Assembly (NCBI GenBank): GCA_016931895.1
Contig: JAFGDY010000235.1
Location: 1 to 40,114 of the forward strand
Direction of reading: 5' to 3'
Origin: Anaerolineae bacterium
Lineage (GTDB): Bacteria; Chloroflexota; Anaerolineae; 4572-78; J111
Length of the DNA: 40,114 nucleotides
Shown here: piece by piece, positions 6,675 to 38,630 of the stretch
How the letters are laid out: each line of letters opens with the position of its first letter
How positions within the stretch are numbered: the first letter of the stretch is position 1
Made by a program: the position numbers and the translations under genes
Notes under the pieces: model-generated
The model's database searches: none
What the model saw: the letters and a program-made list of their open reading frames with translations, nothing else
What the model was told of the DNA's origin: nothing

Positions 6675-7811
6675 ATGACCTGGCCTGAAGAGAAAAAAAT
6701 CCGCCTGGCGCACCTTGTTGATAATCTCGACCGGGGTGGTACCCAAACGTGGTTGATGATCTTGGTCAAAGGGCTGGCCGAGCTGGGCTTTGCCCAACGC
6801 ATCTACTGTCTCAACGAAGTCGTCAATTCCGGCATTGTGCAAAACCTGGAAGCAAGCGGGGCCAGGGTGGTTATCATTGGCCGGCCCCGACTCTACATGC
6901 TGGTTGGTTTTTTTCAACTTTATCGTGACCTGCAAGCCTGGCAACCTGAGATAGCGCAAACCATTTTACAGTTCAGCAATGTCTTGGGCCGGCCGCTGGC
7001 CCGCCGGCTGGGCACGCCGATTATCATCTCTTCCATTCAGGCCCGGAACGCGCACGTTCCCCCCCCGCTACTTTTTTTGGATCGCCTGACCGCCCGTTGG
7101 GCCGATTTGTTCATTGCGGTTGGCCGGCAGGCCATTCCCTTTGCCATTGCCCACGAGGGCGTGCCCCCGGATAAAGTGCTTTATATTGCTAACAGCATTG
7201 AACCTGACTTGGCAGACCGCAGCCAGATTCGAACGTCTATCCGGGCAGAGTTGGGCATTTCGGCCAAAACCAAAGTGCTGGGCATGGTTGCTCGACTTTC
7301 GGCCAAAAAAGCCCAGCGGGATTTGTTAGAGGCTTACGCAATAGTGGTCAAAACCCACCCCAATACGGCGCTGCTACTGGTTGGCGATGGCCCCCTCCGC
7401 GCAAAATTGGAACGACAGGCCAGGCAGTTAGGGATTGAGCGGCAGGTTATCTTTTTGGGCGACCGGACCGACGTGCCCGATTTATTGGCGGCAATGGATC
7501 TGTTTGCCCATCCCTCGTTGTCTGAAGGGATGCCCCACGCCGTGATGGAAGCAATGGTTGCCGGTTTGCCTGTAATTGCCTCTGCCGTAGATGGCGTGCA
7601 AGATTTGATTGTTGACGGCGAGTCGGGCTGGCTGGTTAACCCAGCCCAACCCCAACAATTGGCCCGGCGCATTATTTTTGCCCTGGAAAATCAGGCGCTC
7701 TGGCCGCACCTCGGTCAGGCCGCGGCTCGCCGCATTGCCAGCGAGTTTTCACCCCAAAAGATGGTGGCGGCTTACAGCGCGGTGTACCGGGAACTGCTGA
7801 CCGGAATTTAA
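6675..7811 (+). CDS. GT4 family glycosyltransferase, paralogue of the gene at 4505
   Basis: 378 residues from the ATG at 6675. The frame is open upstream to 6561, but that part overlaps the divergent gene and looks non-coding. N-terminal loop DNLDRGGTQTWL; donor-site motifs GMVARLSAKKAQRDLL, LVGDGPLR and FLGDRTDVPDLLAAMDL; EX7E in SEGMPHAVMEAM. Each matches the paralogue at 4505-5641 almost position for position, so a gene duplication is likely, with another transferase now between the copies. The ribosome binding site is weak. The stop codon overlaps the convergent GT2 stop by 4 bp. Confidence 0.9.
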   Translation: MTWPEEKKIRLAHLVDNLDRGGTQTWLMILVKGLAELGFAQRIYCLNEVVNSGIVQNLEASGARVVIIGRPRLYMLVGFFQLYRDLQAWQPEIAQTILQFSNVLGRPLARRLGTPIIISSIQARNAHVPPPLLFLDRLTARWADLFIAVGRQAIPFAIAHEGVPPDKVLYIANSIEPDLADRSQIRTSIRAELGISAKTKVLGMVARLSAKKAQRDLLEAYAIVVKTHPNTALLLVGDGPLRAKLERQARQLGIERQVIFLGDRTDVPDLLAAMDLFAHPSLSEGMPHAVMEAMVAGLPVIASAVDGVQDLIVDGESGWLVNPAQPQQLARRIIFALENQALWPHLGQAAARRIASEFSPQKMVAAYSAVYRELLTGI

Positions 7812-8965
7812 TCCGTTTTTCTGGCCGGTAGGTAGGGCCGACCTTTCCAGCTACCGCTGTTGGTAAAAGCCACGTAGATAGAGTTAAGCCCAATGGCTAT
7901 GACCAGGACGACAATCAACGGATAGAGGAGGGCCATATACAACGGCACTTTCAACCAGGCGTGAAACAACCCCGACACCAGCAGCGTGAGCAGGAGGGAT
8001 AAGTCAACCAGCAACAATATGTCTCCAGGAAAATTGTAGCCCCATAGGGCCAACAGACGCACGGCCAGGGGTTCCAGGCCAAAGACGGTCAGGCCAAACA
8101 AGGGCAGCAAAAACAGGGCCAGGTTATAATCAAACGAGGGGAACAGACCTTTGCTGAAGCCCGACCATACTTCGCCAAAGTTGCGGTACATCCGGCAGAA
8201 AACCCAATTGCCGGCATTGACCAACCGCCAGCGATAACCAAACGCTTTAATCCGACGGCCCATTTGCACGTCCAGCACTCCCTTGCGCACCATAGTGAAA
8301 CCGCCAATCCCATCGTAAGCTCTCCGTCGAAAGAGCATAAATTGCCCGTTCACAATCATCATAAAGGGCCAGGACACTCGCGCGGCCAGGGGATAGGGAT
8401 AGACAAGCAGCATGGCAAAATTCAAAATGGCCACGGTCAATCGTTCTGCCCAGGAACCGGCTATTTCCCTGGGGATGGCGGCCAGCAGGTCGGCCTGTTC
8501 GGTTTGTAAGGCTGAAACCGCGTTGGATAAAGCGTGGGGATGAAACCAAACATCGGCATCGGTAAACAGCAATAGGTCTCCCGTAGCCATCTGGCCAAGC
8601 TGGTGGCAGGCCCAATGTTTGCCCATCCAGCCTGGGGGGAGCGATTGTCCATGCATAATTTTGAGCCGTTCTTCGGCGGCGGCCAAACGGTTGAGAATAG
8701 GCCAAGTTTGGTCGGTGGAATGGTCGTCAAGCGCAATCACCTCAAGATCAGGGTAATTCTGTGCCAGCAACGACCGGACACAACGCTCAATATTATCTTG
8801 TTCATTCCTGGTCGGAATCAATACCGAAACTCGAAAGTGGACCGGTGAAGAAAAATAGGTTTCCAGGTGCCGGACGGTGAAAATATTGACGAGCAGGATC
8901 AAACTTACCGTTCCTAAAGCCCCTAAAATGATAATTTGGACAAGATATAAGGAAGTATTTTCCAT
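7808..8965 (-). CDS. GT2 family glycosyltransferase, CrtQ/HpnB-like, membrane-anchored
   Basis: 385 residues. An N-terminal membrane helix (~8-31) precedes a GT-A domain: RVSVLIPTRNEQDNIERC, ALDDHSTDQTW and the metal-binding FTDADVW (DAD ~136-138). The signature SLPPGWMGKHWACHQL is characteristic of the GT2 group around hopanoid-associated HpnB and carotenoid CrtQ enzymes. Two or three more membrane helices lie at the C-terminus (~280-380). The substrate is probably a lipid acceptor, but carotenoid or hopanoid genes are not nearby. It is the last gene of the minus-strand operon, 12 bp after the preceding stop. ATG 8965 is preferred to GTG 8968 because AGGA sits 6 bp upstream. Confidence 0.88.
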   Translation of the reverse strand: MENTSLYLVQIIILGALGTVSLILLVNIFTVRHLETYFSSPVHFRVSVLIPTRNEQDNIERCVRSLLAQNYPDLEVIALDDHSTDQTWPILNRLAAAEERLKIMHGQSLPPGWMGKHWACHQLGQMATGDLLLFTDADVWFHPHALSNAVSALQTEQADLLAAIPREIAGSWAERLTVAILNFAMLLVYPYPLAARVSWPFMMIVNGQFMLFRRRAYDGIGGFTMVRKGVLDVQMGRRIKAFGYRWRLVNAGNWVFCRMYRNFGEVWSGFSKGLFPSFDYNLALFLLPLFGLTVFGLEPLAVRLLALWGYNFPGDILLLVDLSLLLTLLVSGLFHAWLKVPLYMALLYPLIVVLVIAIGLNSIYVAFTNSGSWKGRPYLPARKTD

Positions 8966-8977
8966 CACCTTTCCTCA

Positions 8978-10960
8978 TCACTGCTGTGTTTCGGTTATAA
9001 CATGGTCAATATCACCCATCAACCACTCAGTGACAGGCCAAAAAGAATTGTACCACTCTTCTGGTGGAACCAGAATATCAAGCCGGTTGTCATCGGTTAA
9101 ACGAAAATTGTAGCGGCGCTCAAACACCTGCTGCGTCTGCCGTTCGGGTCTGTCGGAGAGAGCAACGCTGATGACCAGTTTATCGGCGGGCGATAGATTT
9201 ATTATTGAGGAGAGATGTTGATGATAGCTGCCCTGAAATTCAATATTTTGGGGGCTAATGCGCCATTCCACCACATACCGTTTTCCCGGCGTCGAGGAAT
9301 CGTCTAATAGATAAGTTTCGGCCTGACCGTTATTGAGAACTTCGATAAAGACGTAGGAGTTGTCGGTGGGATTGATGATTTGTAGACGTTGAGCTAAAGA
9401 GCCAACCTGACGGCGTTCCAGTTTGACCAGAACGGTTTCAGGATGATCGTAGGGTGTTTTGGTGTAGGGACCGTAGTAATCAAACCGATAGGGTGTTCGT
9501 TCCGGGTAAGCGTCAAGCAGGACAAAATTTTCGTTGTTGCGATTGACGGCATAGAGGATTGGTCCGTCCAGGGTAGGAGCATTGATTAAGTAGGATAAGG
9601 GTGCCAGCAAAAAAGCCCCGGAAGCCAGTGGCGGCACAAAAACCAGGGTATTATCGAGTCGCTGCTCCATAAAGGGCCGGTAAATAGCCTGGCTTTCACG
9701 GGTGTAGGCATAGTTTTGGGCAATATGCCAGGCCAGCAGCCAAACATTAACCAGCAACATCAGCGCCACGGCAAATTGGGCCACACCCGGCCTTGCTTTA
9801 GAAAGGTTCATTGATCCCTGCGCAGCCAGGATGACCAGCGGTACCAGAACGGGAAAGTAATACATGGGGCCAAGATTCTGGTTGACGCCCAAAAGGGTGA
9901 AATGATAATTACCCCAAAAGAAAAGGTAGGCCCCGGGAAAAATGAACAAAAGCAACAGTAAAGTCAACTCCCGCTGCCGGAGGCGTTGGGTGATGAGCTG
10001 GAACAAGGCCAGGCCCGGCAAAATGATCCCGCCAAACACCCATAAGGCAAGCTGTAACAAATTGCCTTGCAGGCTCTCAAGGGCGGCAGGCCAATCATAT
10101 AAAATGGTATTTTGCGCCCGACGGCCAAAACCGGGGATGTCCTGTGGATCCCAGAACCAATAAAGAGGAATAAAAGCAGCGCCGGTAAGAAATTGATTAT
10201 AAGCCAGGGCCAAACCAACCATTGGCCCAAAACCGAGCAGCACCCAGCCACTTTGTTTCAATAAACCCGAAAAGTTTTTGTACCCTTTCGGCCCTGACAG
10301 ATTGAGACCAACAAACAATAAACCAAAGGGCAGAGCAAAGAGAAGGACGTCACCAGGCCGGGCAAAAAAGGCCAGGCCCAGGGCCAAACCGGCGCCAAAC
10401 AATAACAGGGGCGCATTACGCCGATGTCCCCGCAACAATAGCACGGCGAAGGTAAGGAATAACAAGAGGGTGGTGGCATAAGACAAAAAGGTTGCGCTCT
10501 GGATGAGAAAGAATGGGGACAGCAGTAAGAAAGCAGCGGCGATGAGGGCCGGGCGTTTTTGGGGATAGAGTTCCCGGCTCAAGCAATAGAGCAAGAGCAC
10601 ATTGCCCGCCGCCACAAAACCCAGAGCGGCTCGCATAGAACCGCACAGGCGTAATCCCAGGGCCAAGAAGGCCGCATGCACAGGCGTCACCTTGAAAACG
10701 GCACGGTCTCCCAAATTGATTATGTCAAACGCTTTAAAAAACTCGCTGAATTGGGGATCAATGGATAAAAAAAGTTGACCCTGAGCCAGCGCGCGCGCCT
10801 GAAAAATATACACGGCTTCATCAGGATTATTGGAATAGAAGGGGAAGATCATTTCCGAACCGATAACGGCCCAGGCAAAAGCGACGAAGGCCAACCCTGA
10901 CATAACCCATTTTTTATCAAAGAGGGCCAGATATTTGTACTTTTTCTTGCAGATACTCAT
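8978..10960 (-). CDS. Polytopic GT-C type glycosyltransferase with shared C-terminal tail domain (A)
   Basis: 660 residues. About ten to twelve membrane helices fill residues 20-410. The first external loop carries SNNPDEAVYIFQARA, with the DE pair (~47-48) expected as catalytic acid or metal site in PMT/ArnT-like GT-C enzymes. These use polyprenyl-phosphate sugars on the outer membrane face. A soluble part follows (LLDAYPERTPYRFDYYGPY) and then a ~140-residue tail (8981-9400) with NGQAETYLLDD, VEWRISPQNIEFQG, FERRYNFRL and PPEEWYN. The same tail ends three other proteins of this operon. The start ATG overlaps the upstream stop as TGATG; a TTG 3 bp earlier is less likely. Acceptor and sugar are unknown. 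Confidence 0.85.
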   Translation of the reverse strand: MSICKKKYKYLALFDKKWVMSGLAFVAFAWAVIGSEMIFPFYSNNPDEAVYIFQARALAQGQLFLSIDPQFSEFFKAFDIINLGDRAVFKVTPVHAAFLALGLRLCGSMRAALGFVAAGNVLLLYCLSRELYPQKRPALIAAAFLLLSPFFLIQSATFLSYATTLLLFLTFAVLLLRGHRRNAPLLLFGAGLALGLAFFARPGDVLLFALPFGLLFVGLNLSGPKGYKNFSGLLKQSGWVLLGFGPMVGLALAYNQFLTGAAFIPLYWFWDPQDIPGFGRRAQNTILYDWPAALESLQGNLLQLALWVFGGIILPGLALFQLITQRLRQRELTLLLLLFIFPGAYLFFWGNYHFTLLGVNQNLGPMYYFPVLVPLVILAAQGSMNLSKARPGVAQFAVALMLLVNVWLLAWHIAQNYAYTRESQAIYRPFMEQRLDNTLVFVPPLASGAFLLAPLSYLINAPTLDGPILYAVNRNNENFVLLDAYPERTPYRFDYYGPYTKTPYDHPETVLVKLERRQVGSLAQRLQIINPTDNSYVFIEVLNNGQAETYLLDDSSTPGKRYVVEWRISPQNIEFQGSYHQHLSSIINLSPADKLVISVALSDRPERQTQQVFERRYNFRLTDDNRLDILVPPEEWYNSFWPVTEWLMGDIDHVITETQQ

Positions 10961-12627
10961 CAACGGCTCTCCCGGCGCAATATAAAAATGTACCCTGGTT
11001 CAGGCGGCAACCAACGCTGAAATGAATATTGTCGCACCAGTTCATATCCGGCTACCGGTCCCATTGTCACCAGATAACGGTCATTATGCACCCACCACCA
11101 ACTTTTGGAAGGGTCAGGCACATAGTCTGCATAATACAGATACCAGCCGTTAAACTCAAAACCGCCGTCAATCTCGGCTGGGGGAAGGTGGTCGTTGGTC
11201 ATCAATGTTTGTAACGCGACCCAACGAGTTCTGTTCCAGGCCAGGTAATCGTGGGTGGCCGCAATACTGAAGCTCGCATAAAGACAAATTAATAACAGGG
11301 CCAGGGTTGTCCATATAGGCTGGGGGCGTGACTGCAATGTCCTCATAGAGATGGCCAGGACCGCGGCAAGGAGAGGGGCCAAAGGCAGCAGATACCGGTC
11401 AAAAAAACCGCTAATGACAATGGGTAAACAGTAAATGAGACAGGCTGATAACAGGAAGGTGAGCAAGAATCGGTCATTATTGCTTTTAAGGCCATCAGAA
11501 CTGCCAAACAAAGCTGCCGTGACGGAAAAAATATAAACAACAATCATACCTCCCCCCACAATACCCAACACTGTTATTGCCCACCAAAAGGCAGCCGGTA
11601 AAATTGGCGCGTGAGGCAACTCCAAGATATAAACATCGCGCAAGGTCACCGGCCCAATACCGCCACTGGTTAGAACATTGCGGGCCAGGGGCATGGGCTG
11701 TTTTGCCTCACAAACAACGAGGCTGGCGGTGATGGCGAGAATTATAAAAAGTACCCGACTGCGGATGAACCGGAACCAACCGGGCATACAGAACAGAAGA
11801 AGCACAAGCGGCAGCAAAAACAACCCCAGATAGATCAAAATCTTCAGCAGATTTCCGGAAACGGCCAAAAGCAACGTGCCGGGGTTGCCCAGTAGTTTTT
11901 CCAACAGCCTCTCTATTTTGAAGTTGTAGAGGGACGGCAAACCAACAGAGGTTTTTAGCCAATATTCAAACCCCCACAAGGCGCTCCACCCCGCCAGCAA
12001 AGGCGCTGCCGCCCGCATGAGGGTGGAACGAGAAAAGCCGTGTTTCAGCAAAAAAACAAAGGCAAAAGCTATGGGTACAACCAAACCAAGTTGGCGGCAC
12101 AAAATGGCCCCACTGGCAAATAACGTACCTAAGACCAAGTAGAAGTTAGACTCAACCTGGAGACGACGGATCAGGAAGAGTGTGGCGAACACGGTAAAAG
12201 TGGCAAAAGGCACGTCGGTCATAAAAGTGTGGGAGAGGGCAAAGTAGATGGGATTGGCCGCCATCACCAATGCACCCGTAACGGCAAGATACCGGGAATC
12301 GCCGACCTGCTTGAGCAAGAGGTAGGTTCCCAGGATACCTGTCAGGGCCAGCCAGAGCGTGGAGAATCTGAGGGCGGTAAAAGAAAAGCCATCTGGAAGG
12401 CAAAACAGCGCGCCCCACAAAGTATGCGTAAGCAGGGGCATGGTGGTCCAGCCGGTCGGCCGAAAGCTCCCCTCTTCAACCAAGCGTTTGACAGTTTGGC
12501 CGTAAGACCAGTCGTCATTCAGGGGAAAGTGGCCGTAAGGATTAACGATGATAACGGCTAAAATCCATAAAGCTGATAACAATAGCAGGTCTATAACAAC
12601 ATCATATTTCTGAATAAAGGCACGCAT
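10960..12627 (-). CDS. Polytopic GT-C (PMT-like) glycosyltransferase without the tail domain
   Basis: 555 residues with about ten to twelve hydrophobic helices. After the first helix comes HFPLNDDWSYGQTVKRLVEE, a DD-containing loop at the position of the catalytic acid of PMT/GT39-like enzymes. The soluble C-terminus is short (~100 residues, ending near YIFILRRE) and does not contain the YLLDD/PPEEW tail of its neighbours. The start ATG shares one base with the upstream stop (TAATG), and its own stop shares one base with the next start (TGATG), so translation is probably coupled. It likely transfers a sugar from a lipid-phosphate donor on the outside of the membrane. Acceptor unknown. Confidence 0.82.
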   Translation of the reverse strand: MRAFIQKYDVVIDLLLLSALWILAVIIVNPYGHFPLNDDWSYGQTVKRLVEEGSFRPTGWTTMPLLTHTLWGALFCLPDGFSFTALRFSTLWLALTGILGTYLLLKQVGDSRYLAVTGALVMAANPIYFALSHTFMTDVPFATFTVFATLFLIRRLQVESNFYLVLGTLFASGAILCRQLGLVVPIAFAFVFLLKHGFSRSTLMRAAAPLLAGWSALWGFEYWLKTSVGLPSLYNFKIERLLEKLLGNPGTLLLAVSGNLLKILIYLGLFLLPLVLLLFCMPGWFRFIRSRVLFIILAITASLVVCEAKQPMPLARNVLTSGGIGPVTLRDVYILELPHAPILPAAFWWAITVLGIVGGGMIVVYIFSVTAALFGSSDGLKSNNDRFLLTFLLSACLIYCLPIVISGFFDRYLLPLAPLLAAVLAISMRTLQSRPQPIWTTLALLLICLYASFSIAATHDYLAWNRTRWVALQTLMTNDHLPPAEIDGGFEFNGWYLYYADYVPDPSKSWWWVHNDRYLVTMGPVAGYELVRQYSFQRWLPPEPGYIFILRRESR

Positions 12628-14225
12628 TATTGAATAAAAAGATATACTTCATAATTCTCGTCTAAAGTGGCCGCTCTGAATTCGGCTATCTTAACGGTCC
12701 TGGCTTTAAAATCGGCCAGTTCTTCAACAGACCAGGTAAAAATCTTATTGAAGCTGTAAGATTTTTTAAATGGTGGTTGGGCGGATAAATCAAAGTGTCC
12801 CAGGACGATGAGTACCGGCTTTTGCTCGCTGTTTTGAAGCTGGCGGGCAGTGTTCAGCAGTTGGCCCAACGAAAAGTTTACTTGGGCCGATTTGACCAGC
12901 ATGACCCGATTTCTGAATGTCTTTTCTCGAGGAATATAGAGCCGGTTGGGCGCGTAATACGGCAAAGATTCAAGTACGTAATCCGGCTCGCCGATGATAA
13001 TGGCCGACTGATATTCGGGATGGGCGTTGAGAAATTGGCCCAAAGCCTGGCTTGAGCTTTTTTGATGGGTGACATCCTGCCAGGCTTTGGGCACGCCAAA
13101 CCTGATCATGGAGATAAAAACTGCCGACAACACCACATAAACCGCCACCTGATGCAGCCAATACAATCCTTGTTTCAACTTGCCTTTGATTTCGAGCGGC
13201 TGCCCCTCCTGGCGAACAAGCCAATACAGAGAAATCAGAAAGAGAATAAAGATGCCCTGGTGACGTAAAAACCCATGAAAAACTGCCGTAAAAAAAGTAC
13301 CCAGCAAAACGATACCTCCCCAAAGCGACACAGCCGCATGCGGGCGGATGAGCAATCCGGCCACCAACAACCACAACATTATGTCACGGTATGAAACAGC
13401 CACACGAGGAAAAACCTCTCTAAAATTTTGGCTGGGATGTTTGATGTTTGTCCAAAACGACTCTATGACCTGCGTGGTATTTAATGAAAGAACTTTGGTA
13501 ACAATGGTTTCCTGAGTGGGGAAAAATGTAGCCACTGCGCCCAAAATCCCTACGCCAACCAAAACCAGGCACGCCAAAACTGTAGATTTACGAACGCTCA
13601 AGTCATGCTCCATCACCACGCCATCCCAAAACCAAAAAGCAGCCAACACCCCCACCAGCAGGCACGAATGGACATCTGAATTGGCCAGGATTGCCAGCAC
13701 CCCGGCCAAAAGAAATGGCCTTTTCCGGCGATGAAGATAGAGCGCAGCAAAAGCAAAAAACAAGAGCATACTGACCCCATAGCCCCTCACCATAATTGTG
13801 TATTCGTAGAGAGGCAATATTCCCCACATAAAGAGGAGTTTCTGCCAAGTGGGAAAAGGCGCGTACCGCAAAAAAACAGTCACTCCCGCCAAACCGATAC
13901 CGACGCTGACGATTTTGAGAACCACCGGGGTACGGAAAACAAAGAACCCGGTTCGTAAAATCAGATACCACAGGATAGGATGCCCTTCGTTTTTGAGAGC
14001 CAAGGGGAGTTGCCAAAAATAGTCAGGTTCCAGGGCAATAGAGAGCGCTCTCACTTCGTCTCGCCACACTTCATGCTTTGCGCTCAAGAAGATGGCCACA
14101 GCCAGCCAGAGGAGGAGCACTACCCCGGAAGCGATGCTTCGCCTTTTATCGGCAAAACTTTGCGAAGAACGAAGATAGTCAATAAACCCCGTGTTGAGAT
14201 GATAAGGGGCCAAGCTATTCACCAC
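12627..14225 (-). CDS. Polytopic GT-C type membrane glycosyltransferase
   Basis: 532 residues. The first external loop after a helix at ~30-48 contains KHEVWRDEVRALSIAL; the RDE pair is the usual GT-C acidic site. About ten further hydrophobic segments follow to residue ~375. A small soluble C-terminal domain (~385-532) has no similarity that I can see to the YLLDD/PPEEW tail. The start is a GTG overlapping the preceding stop by 11 bp, with GAGG 9 bp upstream. It sits in the middle of the operon between tail-bearing and tail-less transferases. Probable membrane glycosyltransferase or related polytopic enzyme; substrate unknown. Confidence 0.78.
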   Translation of the reverse strand: MVNSLAPYHLNTGFIDYLRSSQSFADKRRSIASGVVLLLWLAVAIFLSAKHEVWRDEVRALSIALEPDYFWQLPLALKNEGHPILWYLILRTGFFVFRTPVVLKIVSVGIGLAGVTVFLRYAPFPTWQKLLFMWGILPLYEYTIMVRGYGVSMLLFFAFAALYLHRRKRPFLLAGVLAILANSDVHSCLLVGVLAAFWFWDGVVMEHDLSVRKSTVLACLVLVGVGILGAVATFFPTQETIVTKVLSLNTTQVIESFWTNIKHPSQNFREVFPRVAVSYRDIMLWLLVAGLLIRPHAAVSLWGGIVLLGTFFTAVFHGFLRHQGIFILFLISLYWLVRQEGQPLEIKGKLKQGLYWLHQVAVYVVLSAVFISMIRFGVPKAWQDVTHQKSSSQALGQFLNAHPEYQSAIIIGEPDYVLESLPYYAPNRLYIPREKTFRNRVMLVKSAQVNFSLGQLLNTARQLQNSEQKPVLIVLGHFDLSAQPPFKKSYSFNKIFTWSVEELADFKARTVKIAEFRAATLDENYEVYLFIQ

Positions 14226-16188
14226 GCATCACCTCGTCAATATCTTTTTGATGCCACTCTGAAATAGGCCACAAAGGATTATGCCACTCTTCGGGAGGAA
14301 GGAGGATATCGAGTTGCTTATCTTTGGTCAACCGGAACGGGTAACGCCATTCAAAAATTTGCTGGGCGACCCGTTCTGGACCATCGCTAAAGTCCACGGC
14401 TATCATCAGCTTGTGATCAGGGGATAACGCCGTGATCGAGGAGAGATGCTGCTGGGACGCTCCCTCAAGCTCAACTTTTTGCGGGGTAATAAGCCACTTT
14501 ATCTGATAGACACAACCCTGGTAAGAGGCATCATCAAGCAAATAATTTTCCGCTTGCTCACCGTTCCGCACTTCTACATAAACATAAGGGCTATGGGTGG
14601 GATTGACGATATGTAAGTATTGATTGAAGCCGTCAACCTGGCGGCGTTCCATTTTGACCAATTCCGTTTTTGGGTTGTCATCAGGCGACTCGGTGTAAGG
14701 GCCATAATAATCAAACCGATAAGCGGTTCGTTCTGGATAAGCATCCAGCAGGGTAAAATTTTCCTGGTCTCTATTAAGGGCGTACAGAATCTGGCCATCA
14801 AAAGTAGGAGTGTTGCTCAAGTAAGGAAAGGGGGTCAACAGAAAAGGTCCGGCCAGGGGCGGCACAAAAACCAGGGCCGGGTTCTCGAGTTGCTGCTGCC
14901 CAAAAGGCCGGTAAATGGCCTGGTATTCCCGGGTGTAGGCCCAGTTTTGCGCGATATGCCAGCCCAAGAGCCAAATATTGACCAGAACCATTGTGGCGGT
15001 CAGAAGCAGGGCCAGTAGGGGGCGACGTTTAGAGAGGGTCAACAATCCTTGCGCGCCCAGGATGACCAGCGGGACCAACATAGGGAAGTAATACATAGGG
15101 CCAAGATAGACCACCCCCTTCCAGAAAATCGCCATGGCGTAAGCGCCCCAAAAGAAGAAGTACCCTACCGGAAAAATAACCAAAAGCAGCAGTAAGGTCA
15201 ATTCCGTCCGCCGGATACGGCCGGTCAACAGGGGCAGCAGCGCCAGGCCAAGTAGGAAGGTTCCTCCAAATACCCACAGGTTGAGTTGCCACAAATTATG
15301 CGCCAAACTCTTGATAGCAGCCGGGAGATCATACAAAATAGCTACTCGTCCCCGCAGGCCAAAACCGAGGGTGTCTTGCGGATCCCAGAGTAAAAAAGGA
15401 AAACAAAAAGGATCGCCGGTAAAGTAATAGTTATAAATTAAGACCAGGCCAAACACCGGCCCAAAACCGGCCAGCACCCAGCCGCCTTGTTTCAAAAAAA
15501 TTGAAAGGCTAAAGCCCTGTGAGTTTGACCCCTTTAGACCAACAAAGAATATCCCAAAGGGAATGGCGAAGAGGATGGCATCGTAAGGACGAGCAAAAAA
15601 GGCCAGCCCCAGAGCCAAACCGGCCCCCATCAATAAATGGGGCGCATTGTGGCGCTGCCCTCGTAGCAACAACACCGCAAAAAAAAGGTGCAGCAGCAGA
15701 GCTGTGCTGTAAGGGAGAAAGGTTATACTTTGAATGAGAAAAAAGGGCGAGAGAAGAAAAAAAACAGCAGCCAATAAAGCCAGACGATTTTGGGGATAGA
15801 ACGCCCGGCTCAAACAATAGAGCAGAATTACATTGCCCGCCGCCACAAAACCCAAAGCAGCCCGCATAGAACCGAACAGGAGCAATCCCAGCGCCAAAAA
15901 AGCGGCATGCACGGGGGTATACTTAAAAATAGCCCGCTCGCCGGTATTGACCACAAACCAGGTCTTGAAAAAGGTCTCACTGAATTGGTTTGCGGGCAGA
16001 AAAAGCCGACCTTGAGACAAGGCGCGCGCCTGTAATATATAGACGGCTTCGTCGTGGTCATTGGAATAGAAAGGGAAAATCATCTCCGAGACAATGATAA
16101 CCCAGGCGAAAGCAACAAAGGCCAGTGGCAAAATCACCCACTTTTTTTCAAGCAGGGTTAAGAGAGATGGCAATATTTTGCCTTTCAT
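14215..16188 (-). CDS. Polytopic GT-C type glycosyltransferase with shared C-terminal tail domain (B)
   Basis: 657 residues, closely similar over its full length to the product of 8978-10960. The first loop FYSNDHDEAVYILQARA (DE at ~46-47) precedes the same series of helices with conserved phrases TPVHAAFLALGL, GFVAAGNVILLYCLSR and LGLAFFARPYD. The soluble part begins with LLDAYPERTAYRFDYYGPY and ends in the tail domain (14218-14631): AENYLLDDASYQG, KWLITPQKVELEG, FEWRYPFRLT and PPEEWHNPLWPISEW. The ATG overlaps the upstream stop as ATGA. Tandem duplication with its neighbours is clear. Predicted to act on the outer face of the membrane with a lipid-phosphate sugar donor (inference from fold). 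Confidence 0.85.
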   Translation of the reverse strand: MKGKILPSLLTLLEKKWVILPLAFVAFAWVIIVSEMIFPFYSNDHDEAVYILQARALSQGRLFLPANQFSETFFKTWFVVNTGERAIFKYTPVHAAFLALGLLLFGSMRAALGFVAAGNVILLYCLSRAFYPQNRLALLAAVFFLLSPFFLIQSITFLPYSTALLLHLFFAVLLLRGQRHNAPHLLMGAGLALGLAFFARPYDAILFAIPFGIFFVGLKGSNSQGFSLSIFLKQGGWVLAGFGPVFGLVLIYNYYFTGDPFCFPFLLWDPQDTLGFGLRGRVAILYDLPAAIKSLAHNLWQLNLWVFGGTFLLGLALLPLLTGRIRRTELTLLLLLVIFPVGYFFFWGAYAMAIFWKGVVYLGPMYYFPMLVPLVILGAQGLLTLSKRRPLLALLLTATMVLVNIWLLGWHIAQNWAYTREYQAIYRPFGQQQLENPALVFVPPLAGPFLLTPFPYLSNTPTFDGQILYALNRDQENFTLLDAYPERTAYRFDYYGPYTESPDDNPKTELVKMERRQVDGFNQYLHIVNPTHSPYVYVEVRNGEQAENYLLDDASYQGCVYQIKWLITPQKVELEGASQQHLSSITALSPDHKLMIAVDFSDGPERVAQQIFEWRYPFRLTKDKQLDILLPPEEWHNPLWPISEWHQKDIDEVMRGE

Positions 16189-18539
16189 CGGTCTGTCATC
16201 ACGTCATCAATATCGCCCTGCTGCCATTCTGCTTCAGGCCAGTTCGGATTATACCACTCTTCCGGCGGCAGGAGAACCTCCAATTGGTTATCAGGGGTGA
16301 CCCGAAAGGTAAAGCGACGTTCAACGATATGGCGGTTGGGACGGGACAGACTTGGCCTGAAAGCCGCCACCACAGCCAGGAATTGGTTAGTGGACATCTT
16401 TTTGATCGAGGCGGTTTTTTGTTTGGATGCGCCCTGGAAAGAAATATCATCCGGCGTAATCGTCCATTTCAGGCTATATTCACGGCCCTGGCTCGACGCA
16501 TCATCAAGGAGATAAACTTCCGCCTGCCCATTATTCCAAATGTAGGCATAAACATAAGGGCTGTCGGTGGGGTTCGTCACGGAGAGCGACTGGGTAAAGG
16601 CATCGCCGCGAATAAAATTACTGGTTTTGGACGGCAGCAAAACCTCCTGTTGCTGATCGCCGGTTAGCCTGAATTGATAACGATGCTCCAGGATTGTTTC
16701 CGGCCCGTTTTGGGGATCATGACGGAATGAAGCGGCCAGAACCAAAAATTCTTTGCCGGAGAGACTATCAAGGCGGGATAATTGTTTTTGGTAGTCTCCT
16801 TGCAGCCAAATCTGGTGGGGTTGAATGTGCCAGGTTACTTCATAAGTTTTTCCCTGGCGAGAATGGTCATCGAGTAAATATTTTTGGGTTTGAGGGCCAT
16901 GTTGAAGGTAGGTGTAAACGTAAGGGGCTGATGAAGGGTTGGCAAAATGGAGGCTTTGGGTAAGATGATTAGATTGGTGACGCTCCATTTCAACCAGGCT
17001 GGTCGCAACATCGTCTTGGGGTGATTCGGTGTAGGCGCCGGGGTAGATAAAACGGTAGGTCACCCGATCCGGGTAGGCATCGAGCAGGGTCAAATGACTG
17101 TTCTGGTTTGTATCCAGCGCGTAAAGGATCGGCCCGTCCAGAGAAGGTGTATTGGCCAGCCAGGCCAGGGGATGCAGCAGGTAGGGGCCGTAAAGGGGAG
17201 GGACAAAAACCAGGGCCTGGTCAAGCGGCTGCTCCAAAAAGGGATGATAAATGGCTTGATGTTTGCGAGTGTAGGCATAGTTTTGCCCAATATGCCGGGC
17301 CAAAAGGGCCGCATTAATCCCCCCCATTACCAACAGAAATATAATGGCGACAAACGAGGCGCGATTGAATAGCCTACAAAGCCCCTGTGCGCCAAGAAGA
17401 ACCAGGGGAATGAGTACCGGCAAGTAATACATGGGGCCAAGATACTCAATGACGCCCCAGAGCGTAAAATTATACGCGCCCCAAAAGAAAAAATGGCCCA
17501 AGGGAAATACAAAAAAGAGCAGGGGTAAGAGGGCGTTTGACCAACTGCGGTAATTGGCAATGACCTGGAACAAGGCAAGTCCCAGCAAAAGGGGACCTCC
17601 GAACACCCAAAAATTGAGCTGGAAAAGGTTGGCGGAGAGGCTGTCAAGCGCGGCAGAAACATTATACAAAATGGGTATATTGAGCGGATGTTGACGCTTA
17701 TACCCAAAACCAAAAGTGTCCAGCGGATCGTAAAGCGTAAAGGGGAAGCGCAGGGGATGGCCGGTTATGAAGAGGTTATAAAGCAAAACCAAGCCCAAAA
17801 TTGGCAACAAGCCGGCCATCAACCAGGCAATTTGTTTGACCAGGCCGTTTGGCTTTGACCAGGTTAGCTTGAGCAAAAATAAACCAAAAGGAATGGCAAA
17901 CAAAATGGCGTCATAAGGCCGGCTAAAAAAGGCCAGCCCCAGGGCTAAACCGGCGCAGATCAGCAAAAAAGGAGCCTGGCGACGACTGCCGCGCAGAAAA
18001 AACACAGCAAAACAAAGGTATAATAACAGCGCAGTGGTGTACGACAGGTAAGTGGCGCTCTGGATCAAAAAGAAGGGCGAGAGTATGAAAAAGAAGGCGG
18101 CCAGTAAAGCGGTTCTACGGTTACCCCCCATTTCTTGGCTCAAGCGATATAGCAAAATGACGTTGCCCGCAGCCACAAAACCCAGGGTGGTTCGCATCGT
18201 ACCAAACAGTAGTTGCCCTAAAGCCAGGAAAGCCGCATGCACCGGCGTATACTTGAAGATGCCTCTATCGCCATGCTCAACCACAAACCAGGGCGTAAAA
18301 AAATCATCAAAAAACTCATTGACCGGCAGGGTCAACCGGCCCGCAAGCAGGGTTTGCGCCTGCAAAATATAAACAGGTTCATCGTGGTTATTAGAATAGA
18401 AGGGGAACAGCCATGCCGAAGCAATAATGGCCCAGGCAAAAGCCAGGAAAGCCAGGAAGACTACCGGCCATTTTTTTTCAAAGCCAGCCATAGAACCATC
18501 GTGTTTTTTAAGACGGGCATGGGAGGCAACATGTTTCAT
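16185..18539 (-). CDS. Polytopic GT-C type glycosyltransferase with two copies of the tail domain (C)
   Basis: 784 residues, about 125 longer than its paralogues at 8978 and 14215. The membrane part matches them (SNNHDEPVYILQAQT with DE ~53-54; TPVHAAFLALGQLL; LGLAFFSRPYDAILFAIPFG). The extra length is a second copy of the tail domain. Copy 1 (16596-16967) has KYLLDDHSRQGKTY and LEHRYQFRLTGD but ends in LLPSKTSNF instead of PPEEW. Copy 2 (16188-16595) has VYLLDDASSQGREY, VERRFTFRVT and PPEEWYNPNWPEAEW. The copies have diverged, so the duplication is not recent. It is coupled to the upstream gene by ATGA. Confidence 0.85.
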   Translation of the reverse strand: MKHVASHARLKKHDGSMAGFEKKWPVVFLAFLAFAWAIIASAWLFPFYSNNHDEPVYILQAQTLLAGRLTLPVNEFFDDFFTPWFVVEHGDRGIFKYTPVHAAFLALGQLLFGTMRTTLGFVAAGNVILLYRLSQEMGGNRRTALLAAFFFILSPFFLIQSATYLSYTTALLLYLCFAVFFLRGSRRQAPFLLICAGLALGLAFFSRPYDAILFAIPFGLFLLKLTWSKPNGLVKQIAWLMAGLLPILGLVLLYNLFITGHPLRFPFTLYDPLDTFGFGYKRQHPLNIPILYNVSAALDSLSANLFQLNFWVFGGPLLLGLALFQVIANYRSWSNALLPLLFFVFPLGHFFFWGAYNFTLWGVIEYLGPMYYLPVLIPLVLLGAQGLCRLFNRASFVAIIFLLVMGGINAALLARHIGQNYAYTRKHQAIYHPFLEQPLDQALVFVPPLYGPYLLHPLAWLANTPSLDGPILYALDTNQNSHLTLLDAYPDRVTYRFIYPGAYTESPQDDVATSLVEMERHQSNHLTQSLHFANPSSAPYVYTYLQHGPQTQKYLLDDHSRQGKTYEVTWHIQPHQIWLQGDYQKQLSRLDSLSGKEFLVLAASFRHDPQNGPETILEHRYQFRLTGDQQQEVLLPSKTSNFIRGDAFTQSLSVTNPTDSPYVYAYIWNNGQAEVYLLDDASSQGREYSLKWTITPDDISFQGASKQKTASIKKMSTNQFLAVVAAFRPSLSRPNRHIVERRFTFRVTPDNQLEVLLPPEEWYNPNWPEAEWQQGDIDDVMTDR

Positions 18540-20560
18540 CGGTCTGTCATTACATGGTCAATACTTACTCTTCGCCAACCTGACTCGTCAGGCCACTGAG
18601 GATTGTGCCACTCCTCTGGCGGATAAAAAAACTCAATCTGGTTGTCCTTTGTGAATTTGAACCAATACCGGCGTTCAAAAATATGTAGCGTTACGCGGTC
18701 TGGACTGTCGCTAAAGGCAACGGCTATGGCCAGAAATTGATCGGGCGACAAGGCGGTAATCGAAGAAAGCTTTGCTTGAAATGCGCCTTGAAACAGAATA
18801 TTCCGGGGGGTAATGGTCCACTCCACATTATAGGTACGGCCTTGCCAAGACGCATCATCCAAAAGATAAGTTTCAGCTTGACCGTTGTTCCAAATGTAGA
18901 CATATACATAGGGATGCTCCGTCGGGTTAACCAAGTGTAAGGGCTGGTTCAAGCTAATCTTACTATAAGTCAGCACACCATCAGTAATCCATTTTGTTGA
19001 TGTTTTCCACTTAACAACTTGGTGGCTATCAAGCATATCTCCGTGATCATGTCCTCCTACTAGAACGGACGAGATTGGAAGGAAACTTGAACGATGTTTA
19101 TAAAAAATAAAATTAATTTTAAGAAGCGTTGCCCTTATATCCCAACCAATAGGGCGCCGGTTTGTGTAGGTTTTTAACCATTCCCTGTCGCTAAATTCAT
19201 TAAGTAAGCAGCAACCATAGTAAAAAGCCAATGTGCCAATTTCTCCTCGGGCCTGAATAGTTTGGCCGGAATCATGTTCTTTTAACCACAAAGCTACTTT
19301 TTTGTACTGCTCATGTGTGGCCCAATTGGTATGGATAGGCATTTCTTTGAGATAAAAACCATTTCTGCCAAGAAGATAGAGCATGCCTGATGCGGCGATA
19401 AGAATATATAGCAGCACCAAAGCCCACAATAATCTCTTTTTCCATGTTTGAGCACCATAACGATAACTATCTGCCAAAGCTAAATCGCCAAGAAGAATAA
19501 TTCCTATCACTTCGGGAACGTAATACCAGTGGTATGGAGGGACCCGTAGCAAAGAATAACTGATAAAATGCGCCAAACCACTCAGCCCAATGATTGCCAT
19601 AATCATTCTTGAATCTATTTCCCTAGAAATTTCTTTAGGAGAGAAATTGGGAGGATGCACCCTTTGGCCGCCCCCGGCCACCCGCCCTGCGAAGCTAAAA
19701 AATTTTGGACTATTATTAAAAGCCAGTATAGCCAAAGGTAGACAAAAAAATGATAAGGTGGTTTCCAATGGATACGCTTTGCAATAAAGTAATAACCCAT
19801 TGGAAAAGGTCCATGTCCCCCATGACATTTGCGAGGTCTTTATAAAAAGCGTATCAGGAACCAACGAACCCAGATGTATCCACGAAAAAATGTACCACGG
19901 CGCAAGACATCCAAGGTAAAATAATGCAAGCTTGAACCGCGATTTCATTGTTGGAACAAAGGCCAGAAATATAGTAAAAAATAAAATTCCTTCTGGCCTG
20001 GTTAGCGTCAGTAAGCCGGTTGCTACGGCCAATAAAGACCACTTGCCCTCCAGATAGAAATAGACTGAACCGATAAAGAGCGTGGTAAATAATATCCCCT
20101 CGAGACCAATAGTTGATAATAATAATGGATTGAAGACAAGAGACGCAAAGGAAACAAAGCCAAAAATCTCTGTATTCAGGCTTTTGACTGATATTTTGCG
20201 CAACAAAATAAAAATAAGCAAAAAATTAATTAACGTCAACCACTTTACAGCATCTATTATTGAGCCTGTAACAAAAGCAGTTAAAGCTAACAGAATAACA
20301 TTGAGAGGGGAGGTGGCTGAATTGCTGACATGATTTGGAAAAAATCCCCATGTTCCGCTTTCCAAAAGAGTTTTGGCGTACCGCATTGTTATAAACGCAT
20401 CATCAATGATCGCATTTTCAAAAAATAAAAGATAAAAGTAAGTGATAACCGCTATCAGTAAGATTATAAGAAATGTTATGGGTGTCCCGCAGGCAATTAC
20501 CCGTAGCAGGTTAGCTTTTGTTTTTGAGATGAATCCATCTCTCATTGGCAATCGCCCCAT
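18536..20560 (-). CDS. Polytopic GT-C type glycosyltransferase, different membrane part, same tail domain (D)
   Basis: 674 residues. The membrane part differs from its three tail-bearing neighbours. Its first loop IIDDAFITMRYAKTLLESG resembles the DDAFI-RYA motif of AftB-like and related GT-C enzymes. The gene is also more AT-rich than those downstream. The last 139 residues (18539-18955) are nevertheless the same tail: NNGQAETYLLDDASWQG, VEWTITPRNILFQG, FERRYWFKFT and PPEEWHNPQWP. This implies module swapping. A GC-rich patch at 19650-19695 encodes a Gly/Arg/Pro-rich stretch (FAGRVAGGGQRVHPP) unlike the rest. The start ATG shares its A with the SGNH stop (TGATG); a TTG 3 bp earlier is the alternative. 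Confidence 0.82.
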   Translation of the reverse strand: MGRLPMRDGFISKTKANLLRVIACGTPITFLIILLIAVITYFYLLFFENAIIDDAFITMRYAKTLLESGTWGFFPNHVSNSATSPLNVILLALTAFVTGSIIDAVKWLTLINFLLIFILLRKISVKSLNTEIFGFVSFASLVFNPLLLSTIGLEGILFTTLFIGSVYFYLEGKWSLLAVATGLLTLTRPEGILFFTIFLAFVPTMKSRFKLALFYLGCLAPWYIFSWIHLGSLVPDTLFIKTSQMSWGTWTFSNGLLLYCKAYPLETTLSFFCLPLAILAFNNSPKFFSFAGRVAGGGQRVHPPNFSPKEISREIDSRMIMAIIGLSGLAHFISYSLLRVPPYHWYYVPEVIGIILLGDLALADSYRYGAQTWKKRLLWALVLLYILIAASGMLYLLGRNGFYLKEMPIHTNWATHEQYKKVALWLKEHDSGQTIQARGEIGTLAFYYGCCLLNEFSDREWLKTYTNRRPIGWDIRATLLKINFIFYKHRSSFLPISSVLVGGHDHGDMLDSHQVVKWKTSTKWITDGVLTYSKISLNQPLHLVNPTEHPYVYVYIWNNGQAETYLLDDASWQGRTYNVEWTITPRNILFQGAFQAKLSSITALSPDQFLAIAVAFSDSPDRVTLHIFERRYWFKFTKDNQIEFFYPPEEWHNPQWPDESGWRRVSIDHVMTDR

Positions 20561-21636
20561 CAATCATAATCTGTTTGGATATTTTCACTGGCTGAATGGT
20601 TTGATAACAAATCATTCTCCAAGATAAATTCAGCAATAGCATCGGCCGCAATTTGATGTCCTCGCTCATTGGGATGTTGGTCGCTGGGGTGAACCCACAG
20701 AGCCGTATATGCCTCACCCTGAAATGCTTCAAATAGATCCAGAAACGTTATGTTATTGCTGGCGCAGTATTGAGATAGCATAAGATGGAGCGGGCGAAAG
20801 GGGTATTGCTCATTGAGTTCATACATAAAGGGAAAGACAACAACAGCATACTTTGCCCCAATTGCTTCAGCCTGTCGCCGCCCTTTTAATAAATAGTTCA
20901 AACTATTGGCCCATTTGTATTGTTCCTGCATGGCGCTGTCGAGCAACTCATCAATGTATTTTTGGCCGTAAAGCTGGCGTTTAAGGGTGGCGTAAAAGTA
21001 GCTGCCCAGGTAAGAATATTTCAGACTCCTATTTTCATACTCATTTCTAAAGTTGTCCCATAAATCAAGACCACCGGCGTAGTCGGCATCGTTAAGCACA
21101 TAAACCAGAATAACCAGGTCCGGTTCAAAGTGTATCCCCGCTTGCTCAAAGTAATTGATTTCGTCGCTGGTGCCCCAGATACTGGTCCCAAAATTCAACA
21201 CCTCTACCGGCCAAGCCAAATGTTGATTTAAGATTTTCTCCAGGCGGTAACTAAAAGTGTGCTCAAACTTAACCCCTTCTCCAAAAGTAAATGAATCGCC
21301 CAGAATAATTATCCGTCTGGTATTGGGCGCTTTGTTTTTTTCATAATCCGGCCCTCTAAAACCGTGTTTGTTGATATGGTAAATCAAGCCGTTATTCTGA
21401 TCAAAATAGCCTTGGGGGTTACTGTCATATTTCAACTCGAACTGACTATTGGGTTTAAACTGAATACTTACCCCGGGCAAGCTTTTGGTTTCAGGCAGCA
21501 AAGCATGTTCCCAATCGCGAGTCCTTGGCTGGTGGTAGCCCCGCATATCAAACGCTCGAAATACTATCTCAAGCAAGGATAGCGTTAGACAAATGGATAA
21601 AATAGCCAATAGTAGATTAAGCATAAAATTCTTCAT
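20560..21636 (-). CDS. SGNH/GDSL-family hydrolase, membrane-anchored
   Basis: 358 residues from the ATG at 21636. An N-terminal hydrophobic signal anchor (~5-27, KNFMLNLLLAILSICLTL) is followed by an SGNH fold. Block I is IIILGDSFTFGEGV (GDS ~113-115). A mid-chain segment, LNFGTSIWGTSDE, probably supplies the oxyanion residues. The catalytic Asp/His are in SDQHPNERGH near the C-terminus. Such enzymes add or remove O-acetyl groups on glycans; given the operon, a role in decorating the surface glycan outside the membrane is likely. A TTG start at 21678 is possible but would put a hydrophilic extension before the anchor. First gene of the eight-gene operon. Confidence 0.85.
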   Translation of the reverse strand: MKNFMLNLLLAILSICLTLSLLEIVFRAFDMRGYHQPRTRDWEHALLPETKSLPGVSIQFKPNSQFELKYDSNPQGYFDQNNGLIYHINKHGFRGPDYEKNKAPNTRRIIILGDSFTFGEGVKFEHTFSYRLEKILNQHLAWPVEVLNFGTSIWGTSDEINYFEQAGIHFEPDLVILVYVLNDADYAGGLDLWDNFRNEYENRSLKYSYLGSYFYATLKRQLYGQKYIDELLDSAMQEQYKWANSLNYLLKGRRQAEAIGAKYAVVVFPFMYELNEQYPFRPLHLMLSQYCASNNITFLDLFEAFQGEAYTALWVHPSDQHPNERGHQIAADAIAEFILENDLLSNHSASENIQTDYD

Positions 21637-22040
21637 TATGACTGATCCATTATTACCCGGGGAGTCGCCCTGACTCAAAGAGGTTCCCCCTGGTAATCAG
21701 CCTGAGTTTGTTGTAATAAAAGGCCAAATTTTTCCATTGGGGGTATCATGAGGGGTGATTTACCCGGTAAACAAATACCTGAATTTTCTATTCATAGGTC
21801 TGCTAATGATTAATTCCCAGAGATTCGCCCCTAACTTCCCTGGCTAAGAGTCAGTCATTCTGCTCGCCGGGAGACAATACCTGTCAAAGATCCCTGGCTT
21901 GAAAATTGGGCCTGAGACAAGGTTTAGATTGCACCTCTGCTCTATCCAGATAGGTAGAAAATAAAAAGCCTTACCTCATAATGCCGGTAAGGCTTTTTTA
22001 TAACGAAATTATATCTTATACAGCATCAGAATTTCTATAA
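21637..22040. other. Intergenic region between the GT-C operon and tRNA-Thr
   Basis: No gene seen. It should hold the promoter of the minus-strand operon. A TTGACA (minus strand, 21887-21882) is present, but no good -10 lies 16-18 bp from it, so I do not call it. A strong hairpin at 21962-21999 is listed separately. Confidence 0.5.
21962..21999 (-). terminator. Intrinsic terminator downstream of tRNA-Thr (potentially bidirectional)
   Basis: The 12-bp perfect stem AAAAGCCTTACC / GGTAAGGCTTTT has a loop of about 10 bases. It is flanked by A-runs on one side and T-runs on the other, so it can end transcription in both directions. It lies about 40 bp past the tRNA 3' end. Confidence 0.8.
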
Positions 22041-26057: not shown

Positions 26058-26474
26058 ATGGGGGAGTCAACGCAAAAATTGGTGATTGACAGCCGTCTGG
26101 AGGCTACCACCGAGGCCCGGCGCTGGATAGCCCAACAAGCCAGGGCTGCCGGTTTCGGCCCGGAAGTTATTTTTGCCGTTGAACTGGCGGCGGGCGAAGC
26201 CCTGGCCAACGTGGTGGAACACGCCTACGGCCAGCGGCCCGGCCACCAAATTCACCTCTCCCTGACCACCGACGAAAAGAAGCTCACCTTAACCATTCGC
26301 GATTTTGGCCGGAAGTTTGATGGGGCCGCTTTTACGCCTCACGATCCGGCAGCGGCGATTGAGAACGGGCGGGGGGTGTTTTTGATCTATGAGTTGATGG
26401 ACGAGGTTGTTTACGATACCTCGCTGCCAACAGGCACTCAGTTGAAGCTGGTCAAATACCGGGGAGGCCAATAG
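26058..26474 (+). CDS. RsbW/SpoIIAB-like anti-sigma factor serine kinase (HATPase)
   Basis: 138 residues. The GHKL ATPase fold shows an N-box ELAAGEALANVVEHAYG, a G1-type box RDFGRKFD and a G2-type segment GRGVFLIYELMDEV. Length and motifs match RsbW/BtrW-type kinases, which bind and phosphorylate STAS antagonists and otherwise sequester a sigma factor or another target. The ATG at 26058 is preferred to GTG 26052 because GAGG lies 5 bp before it. The stop overlaps the GTG start of the next gene (TAGTG), coupling it to the PelF-like glycosyltransferase. No sigma factor gene is in the window. Confidence 0.9.
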   Translation: MGESTQKLVIDSRLEATTEARRWIAQQARAAGFGPEVIFAVELAAGEALANVVEHAYGQRPGHQIHLSLTTDEKKLTLTIRDFGRKFDGAAFTPHDPAAAIENGRGVFLIYELMDEVVYDTSLPTGTQLKLVKYRGGQ

Positions 26475-27703
26475 TGCTGGATGTTTGTTTGATTTTGGAA
26501 GGAACCTATCCCTACCTGGTGGGCGGCGTTTCGGCTTGGGTGCAGACCCTACTGACCGGCCTGCCTGATCTCACCTTTGGCCTGGTGCACCTATCCGCCG
26601 ATGAGGGACAGGCCAAACAGCCCCAATACCCCTTCCCGCCTAATTTGCGCCAATTTGTAGACTGGCCTCTGGACTTGGACCCCAATCCACGCTGCCCGGA
26701 GGATACTTATATTACCTTAAATGCCAACTTACCCCAGGCTCGGGTTTACCACGCCCTGTCTACCGGCTTTGCCGGGATGTTGGGCTGCCAGGTAAAAAAA
26801 GCCTCGGGCCGGCCCCTGATCCTCACCGAACACGGCATTTACTGGCGAGAAGTGGAAGTTGGTTCCACCGAGTTGGAATGTGGGTTTAGGGTGGTGCCGG
26901 ACGGCCAGCATCGGATAGATTTGCAATCGTTGCGCCACCATTGGCGGGTCAAGTTGCAAGATATGGCCCAACAAACGTACCGGCAGGCCGACGCCATTAC
27001 CACGGTTTGCCGGGCCAACGCCCGCTTACAAACCACCCTGGGCGCGCCTTCATCGCGGAGCCAGGTGATTTCTAATAGCGTGGATTGGCCGGCCCTGGCC
27101 CCGTCTGCGTTTCGTTCGCCAGCCGGGGATGGCGTGCCCCGGATTGGTTTTGTGGGCCGGGTGGTATCTATTAAGGATGTGTTGACCTTTATTAATGCCT
27201 GTCAATTGGTGGCCGCAGCATTGCCCCAGGCCGAGTTTTATGTCATTGGACCGCTGCATCACGATCCGGCTTACGTGGCTCGCTGTAGAGCTTTGGCCGC
27301 GGACTTGGGCCTGGCTGATCGGCTGACCTTTACCGGCGAAACAGACTCCCGGCCCTGGTACCGTCGCCTCGATGCGGTTGTTTTGACCAGCGTAAGCGAA
27401 GGCCAGCCCTTGGTGCTGCTGGAAGCGATGGCCGCGGGCACGCCCATTGTGACCACCGCCGTGGGTGGCTGCCCGGAATTGGTTTTGGGCGCAAGCAGCC
27501 GGGATCAAAAATTAGGTCCGGCCGGGTACTTGACCCCGGTGGGCAATCCCCAGGCCACAGCCTCGGCTATTTTGAACCTGTGCCGCAATAAAGAGTACTG
27601 GCAGCAGGCCTCGGCTGCCGGCCAGGAGCGGGCGCGGCGTTATTATTCTACCGGGCGTTTGTGCCGGGCTTACCGGGCTTTATATAACAAGTTCATCAAT
27701 TAA
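26474..27703 (+). CDS. pelF: PelF-like GT4 glycosyltransferase (copy 1)
   Basis: 409 residues. The N-terminus LILEGTYPYLVGGVSAW (~7-22) and the LTEHGIYWREVEVG segment (~117-130) are the marks of the PelF group, the cytoplasmic glycosyltransferase of Pel exopolysaccharide synthesis. The donor domain has IGFVGRVVSIKD (~224-235), a VIGP turn, and EX7E from E309 to E317 in SEGQPLVLLEAMAAG. PelF uses UDP-amino sugars in characterised systems; here the donor is inferred only. Somewhat shorter than typical PelF (~500). GTG start overlaps the kinase stop by one base. A second PelF-like gene lies two genes downstream. Confidence 0.85.
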   Translation: MLDVCLILEGTYPYLVGGVSAWVQTLLTGLPDLTFGLVHLSADEGQAKQPQYPFPPNLRQFVDWPLDLDPNPRCPEDTYITLNANLPQARVYHALSTGFAGMLGCQVKKASGRPLILTEHGIYWREVEVGSTELECGFRVVPDGQHRIDLQSLRHHWRVKLQDMAQQTYRQADAITTVCRANARLQTTLGAPSSRSQVISNSVDWPALAPSAFRSPAGDGVPRIGFVGRVVSIKDVLTFINACQLVAAALPQAEFYVIGPLHHDPAYVARCRALAADLGLADRLTFTGETDSRPWYRRLDAVVLTSVSEGQPLVLLEAMAAGTPIVTTAVGGCPELVLGASSRDQKLGPAGYLTPVGNPQATASAILNLCRNKEYWQQASAAGQERARRYYSTGRLCRAYRALYNKFIN

Positions 27704-27745
27704 GGCATTGTTTTTAGACAACTTCTACTTTACCTGGAGGTGATC

Positions 27746-28672: not shown

Positions 28673-28678
28673 AGGCTT

Positions 28679-36783: not shown

Positions 36784-36882
36784 GGCGGCCTTGATCAATG
36801 ATAATTGGTTTATAAAAAGGGATAGCTTCAGGGATTCACAATGGAGTCTGCCGGCTATCCCCCAGAAATGGAGAGAAAAAAA

Positions 36883-38076: not shown

Positions 38077-38084
38077 TTAAAGGG

Positions 38085-38224
38085 GTAGGTTGGGTTGAGC
38101 CACCATGCGAGCCGATTTTGCATCCGATGTTGGGTTTCACTCCCTTGATTTAGCCTAACTATGCCGCGAAACCCAACACGTTGCCTCAATAGGTAAGTCA
38201 GATAAGCCGTTCAACCCAACCTAC
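38085..38224. repeat. Palindromic repeat element with GTAGGTTGGGTTGA ends
   Basis: 140 bp, non-coding. The 14-bp terminal inverted repeats GTAGGTTGGGTTGA / TCAACCCAACCTAC match exactly, and an inner pair TGTTGGGTTTC / GAAACCCAACA makes most of the element foldable. No clear target duplication. Different in sequence from the TGTCATTTCGAG elements in the window. MITE-like or REP-like; it fills most of the gap between two secreted-protein genes. Confidence 0.6.
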
Positions 38225-38276
38225 TGAAAACTACAGGTTTCGTATGAAGGGCCACAGTAACGCAAAGGAGAACCTA

Positions 38277-38588: not shown

Positions 38589-38601
38589 ATAAAGCAGCCC
38601 A

Positions 38602-38630
38602 GGCGGTCAGGTTGTAGAAACCTGGCCGCC
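38602..38630 (+). terminator. Hairpin after the small secreted protein gene
   Basis: 12-bp stem GGCGGTCAGGTT / AACCTGGCCGCC with one G-T wobble, starting 13 bp after the stop. The downstream sequence is AACAAAATTTTG, only weakly T-rich. Probably the transcript end. Confidence 0.55.

Follow-up and report, generated by a model that had tools for sequence, protein, structure and literature searches.

Organization of the locus

The window, by which we mean the whole stretch of 40,114 nucleotides that was analysed, lies on contig 235 of an Anaerolineae bacterium assembly (6.06 Mb, 320 contigs). The ORF list gives a run of minus-strand frames that extends from 21678 to 7808 and whose ends overlap or almost touch, in the order SGNH hydrolase, G6, G5, G4, G3, G2, G1 and GT2 (Table 1). 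G1, G4 and G5 are polytopic, with 10–11 hydrophobic segments each, and belong to the PMT_2 family (31.5, 29.4 and 27.4 bits, respectively, for a cut-off of 26.1); their cores are 55–67% identical to one another. The original prediction had described one protein of the operon as having an otherwise unrelated membrane part; this is true of G6, whose core gives a best blastp E of 0.18 against the other three.

Elsewhere in the window, two genes of the DUF3492 plus GT4 type (PelF-like) lie on either side of a nucleotide-sugar epimerase gene (26474–30250) and are followed by a gene for a 1023-residue protein with a weak match to Yip1. Near its end (36841–39735), the window also codes for a collagen-type repeat protein and a papain-family protease.

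Table 1. Genes of the minus-strand run and copies of the C-terminal domain (tail), in window coordinates.
Feature	Position	Strand	Basis
GT2 family transferase (HpnB-like), last gene of the run	7808..8968	-	Pfam
Tail, G1 copy, residues 516–661	8981..9418	-	Alignment and profile; first row of the structure-prediction alignment
G1 GT-C core (PMT_2, start of DUF7846), ORF 8978–10963	9419..10963	-	Pfam; tree
G2, PMT_2 GT-C enzyme, 555 aa, no tail	10960..12627	-	Pfam; ORF list
G3, polytopic, 9 hydrophobic segments, 532 aa, no tail, no Pfam family	12627..14225	-	ORF list; Pfam
Tail, G4 copy, residues 514–657	14218..14649	-	Alignment and profile
G4 GT-C core (PMT_2, start of DUF7846), ORF 14215–16188	14650..16188	-	Pfam; tree
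Tail, G5 second (C-terminal) copy, residues 639–784	16188..16625	-	Alignment and profile
Tail, G5 first (internal) copy, residues 519–640, lacking the PPEEW...DIDxVM end	16620..16985	-	Alignment and profile
G5 GT-C core (PMT_2, start of DUF7846), ORF 16185–18539	16986..18539	-	Pfam; tree
Tail, G6 copy, residues 532–675, GC3 0.49	18539..18970	-	Alignment and profile; codon statistics
G6 membrane core, sequence-unrelated to G1/G4/G5, GC3 0.38	18971..20563	-	blastp; codon statistics
SGNH/GDSL hydrolase, first gene of the run	20560..21678	-	Pfam PF13472, 3.8e-13

A C-terminal domain shared by four transferases

Four membrane transferases of the run end in a domain of about 145 residues, present once in G1, G4 and G6 and twice in G5, and in frame in all cases. 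Alignment and profile agree on these five copies, as the original prediction had it, and the domain is real, not an artefact. The motifs that had been pointed out are all there, and the internal copy of G5 is the only one without the PPEEWxNxxWP and (D/S)IDxV(I/M) elements. The predicted starts in G1, G4 and G6 had to be moved, the tail beginning about 6 residues earlier. The two copies of G5 adjoin, with a 2-residue overlap as delimited here.

The copies are 37–57% identical in pairwise amino-acid comparisons and share 27 invariant columns, many of them polar or aromatic, while their third codon positions are just 34–43% identical. This points to purifying selection on the tail, and suggests that the copies are old duplications which such selection has maintained.

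A profile built from the five copies recovers them from the 6.06 Mb genome at E values of 1e-57 to 1e-76, and finds nothing else at E < 0.2. A match on contig 56 (E 0.24) sits in a protein of another kind and was dropped. At E ≤ 0.01, the tail has no match in 60 related genomes or in 399 further genomes of the phylum (Chloroflexota), and the isolated tail has no significant match in Pfam, PHROGs or PDB sequences. The profile search and taxonomic survey that had been proposed as checks, which cover about 450 genomes of the phylum besides this one, therefore leave the isolated domain unnamed. Motif-pattern scans of genomic and viral contig collections returned no relative either, but as such scans detect only exact short motifs, their negative outcome is weak evidence. 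As judged from these searches, the tail is a sequence-level orphan of one operon.

A different module on other GT-C enzymes of the lineage

In seven relatives of the G6 core, the position of the tail is occupied by a different module of about 133 residues (hereafter type B); other relatives have no module there. Like the tail, type B is a C-terminal module of GT-C enzymes; unlike the tail, which is limited to one operon, it is nearly universal among the sampled relatives (117 of the 120 genomes of the set). It is found mostly on GT-C enzymes, often in tandem, and occurs on 44 of the 75 PMT_2 frames of the own genome. The own genome has 117 matches to type B in 70 frames, 1–3 per frame (for example contig 175, 11982–12380), and none of them is on contig 235. 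No Pfam, NCBIfam or PDB-sequence match to type B exceeds the threshold.

The idea that the tail is itself a type-B module found no support: hhalign against a 119-row type-B alignment gives a probability of 1.2, and the profile comparison z values of -0.5 to -0.8. Type B is so widespread that GT-C enzymes with a C-terminal module must be considered ordinary in this lineage; what is unusual is that the operon has its own, different one. Type B is a very abundant uncatalogued module family on GT-C enzymes, which deserves a name and a test.

Relatives of the GT-C cores

With the G4 protein as query, homologues were detected in 14 of the 60 relatives and in 45 of the 399 other genomes of the phylum. 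These homologues align with the core, and those inspected stop within the short distance expected for a core, with nothing tail-like beyond it, which is why we consider the tail to be an addition to the GT-C core. The possibility that it is no more than the usual C-terminal part of PMT/ArnT-type enzymes, raised in the original prediction as what would refute it, is rejected on the same grounds, since the homologous cores inspected end ahead of the tail. Several phylum homologues have long frames that resembled tailed proteins; their surplus length is N-terminal.

Outside the phylum, the best matches are haloarchaeal proteins encoded on Salarchaeum and Halobaculum plasmids. The protein WP_145843222.1 from Salarchaeum sp. 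JOR-1 (DUF7846, GT39-type), for instance, is homologous to the window proteins throughout the GT-C core (33–35% identity). In a tree of 53 cores, a 100/100 branch separates the window and haloarchaeal proteins from 43 homologues of the phylum, so that the cores of G1, G4 and G5 group with haloarchaeal DUF7846 proteins; this tree is unrooted and samples window, haloarchaeal and Chloroflexota cores, and sequences from other phyla could fall between the window and the archaea. The haloarchaeal homologues carry about 165 extra residues where the window tail starts, and they are the only tailed proteins among the sampled core homologues. The tail of the sister group on the tree is thus comparable to the window tail in length and position, but not recognisably similar to it in sequence. 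The gene context also differs: the haloarchaeal genes are single and lie beside ABC genes of the iron-transporter type, whereas the window has an operon with multiple GT-C enzymes.

In six haloarchaeal plasmid loci, the DUF7846 GT-C gene comes after ABC-transporter genes annotated for iron, and several of these loci have dolichyl-phosphate hexose transferase genes nearby. The homologue on the Halobaculum halobium plasmid (2890–5099) is annotated as two overlapping ORFs of 484 and 252 residues, the latter of which holds the core end and the tail.

Is the tail a diverged DUF7846?

The whole G1, G4 and G5 proteins match DUF7846 (PF25230) with 49.3, 62.6 and 75.2 bits, respectively, above the Pfam gathering cut-off of 26.3. 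The cores without the tail still give 45–72 bits, which means that the score stems mainly from the core end and not from the tail. In the same Pfam searches, G6 does not match DUF7846, and nor do the isolated tails of any copy, in which positions ~76–177 of the profile find no counterpart. The haloarchaeal proteins match nearly all of the 177 positions, of which the first ~75 correspond to the core end and the remainder to the tail. In full-length G1, G4 and G5, the match runs from position 1 and ends near 138–141. The claim that the domain was unrecognised must be qualified accordingly: it holds for the tail searched alone, not for these full-length proteins, whose match to a catalogued family runs into the tail. 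Compared to proteins whose tail was removed or shuffled, the real tail adds 3–6 bits and about 60 profile positions. With an HMM made from the haloarchaeal set, the true window tails rank in the top 1–1.5% of shuffled tails, in three cases that are not independent. Direct comparisons of the window tail with the haloarchaeal tail are not significant (hhalign probability 0.1; profile alignment z 0.6–0.9), and a text search of the literature for DUF7846 found no paper.

The match that reaches into the tail and the presence of archaeal tails at the same point indicate that the tail is probably a catalogued but uncharacterised archaeal tail in strongly diverged form, rather than a wholly unknown class. 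Based on position, length and phylogeny, we find it fairly probable that the two tails share a common origin. We propose common descent only, and do not file the tail as a member of DUF7846.

The other possibility is that this lineage evolved or acquired its tail separately, with no homology to the archaeal one, the shared position being merely where add-ons are tolerated. The lack of significant tail-to-tail similarity speaks for it, as does the unrelated type-B module carried by other GT-C enzymes at the corresponding place, which shows that this position is repeatedly used. On the contrary, independent origin accounts poorly for the restriction of tails to the archaeal sister group among the sampled core homologues, and for the DUF7846 match that extends into the tail in G1, G4 and G5. 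We hold independent origin to be the less probable option, although one that has to be taken seriously; it concerns origin only and is compatible with any function of the tail.

Predicted structure

The structure prediction that had been suggested as a check, run with AlphaFold2 on the five copies, yields a β-sandwich (mean pLDDT 75, pTM 0.69) with a short, uncertain terminal helix. Foldseek found no match to this model at E ≤ 0.001 in the PDB or BFVD. The best rows of VIA-align are synaptotagmin C2B domains (Z 6.0, rmsd 3.4, 112 residues), a level typical of common arrangements, and they are tied among C2, ASF1 and fibronectin-like sandwiches. For this reason we restrict the claim to a predicted Ig/C2-like sandwich, without close solved fold. 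No carbohydrate-binding family was matched by the tail, either in the Pfam sequence search or by fold comparison. The model of full-length G4 (pLDDT 43) is too low in confidence to be used for membrane side or docking.

Possible function of the tail

Three functions had been suggested for the domain: binding of the acceptor glycan, tethering of partner transferases, and positioning of an outer-surface substrate. By analogy with characterised enzymes, the first appears to be the one best supported by precedent. ORF12 (GT136) of Citrobacter youngae O1 consists of a GT-C part (1–502) and an Ig-like module (503–652) that binds the unmodified acceptor O-polysaccharide (PMC11127046). It resembles the window proteins in architecture, with about 500 residues of GT-C followed by a C-terminal module of about 150. 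The mycobacterial EmbA/B/C and AftD likewise combine a GT-C membrane part with an extracytoplasmic β-rich module, and the modules of EmbC and AftD bind the acceptor glycan (PMC11127046); the PDB chains of EmbA/B/C and AftD are not matched in sequence by the profile of the window tail. ORF12 truncated so as to lack the Ig-like module is still active (PMC11127046), which suggests that the role of the tail may be modest.

From the known topology of GT-C enzymes, we assume that the tail is extracytoplasmic. It would keep the acceptor glycan near the GT-C active site while this glycan is assembled or decorated outside the membrane, and several enzymes of the operon would thereby act on the same polymer. 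Also in the operon are genes for another PMT_2 enzyme, a GT2 and an SGNH hydrolase, a content which fits the decoration of an extracytoplasmic glycan, as expected. The best explanation of the whole, an extracytoplasmic β-sandwich on GT-C enzymes that combines an archaeal-type history with acceptor-glycan binding, is one to which we would give an even chance. In any case, the tail is a variation on a known design, GT-C enzyme plus C-terminal module, with a probable catalogued relative, and not a new kind of system. A bolder version is that the tail is a sequence-orphan glycan-recognition tag, copied among non-homologous transferases of the operon and recruiting different families to the same polymer, while a second unnamed module would play this role across the genome; this is possible, and we would rather bet against it. 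If glycan binding is true, the tails could report which enzymes share a polymer.

Alternatively, the tail could be a protein–protein tether which, with its PPEEWxNxxWP...DIDxVM end, gathers the transferases of the operon in one complex. It is indeed common only to enzymes of one operon, including G6, whose membrane part is unrelated, and the end motif occurs in the four terminal copies out of four and is missing only internally, a pattern to be expected if the C-terminus needs to be free. However, G2 and G3, two polytopic proteins of the same run, have no tail, no partner motif was found, and the tails that have been tested on GT-C enzymes bind glycan (PMC11127046), which makes tethering unlikely. 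A passive spacer, or a folding or stability element without ligand, would agree with the activity of truncated ORF12 (PMC11127046) and with the absence of a ligand-binding family in Pfam and Foldseek searches, but is the least probable of these functions considering the purifying selection on the invariant columns.

Proposed acquisition of the tail by G6

The GC3 of the G6 core is 0.38 and that of its tail 0.49, while the cores of G1, G4 and G5 are at 0.57–0.58. This difference in base composition between the two parts of G6 leads us to infer that a foreign, low-GC enzyme captured the local tail. The best tail tree pairs the G6 tail with the second copy of G5, and trees that unite G1 and G4 are preferred, which matches the core tree; simple tandem duplication within G5 is not rejected.

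Within the best explanation given above, the most probable history is the following. G1, G4 and G5 would descend from an archaeal-type PMT_2/DUF7846 enzyme whose C-terminal tail was already in place; the tailed gene would have been duplicated inside the operon to give G1, G4 and G5, G5 would then have gained its second tail, and the low-GC enzyme G6 would have taken a copy from an operon neighbour. The C-terminal modules of extracytoplasmic glycosyltransferases would thus act as exchangeable parts, one of which has apparently passed to an unrelated enzyme, and the data point to salt-loving archaea and a bacterium having exchanged a GT-C gene lineage.

The overall GC content of the SGNH hydrolase gene (0.43) and of the G6 core (0.40) is low compared to about 0.5 in the remaining operon, which suggests that these two have a common foreign origin.
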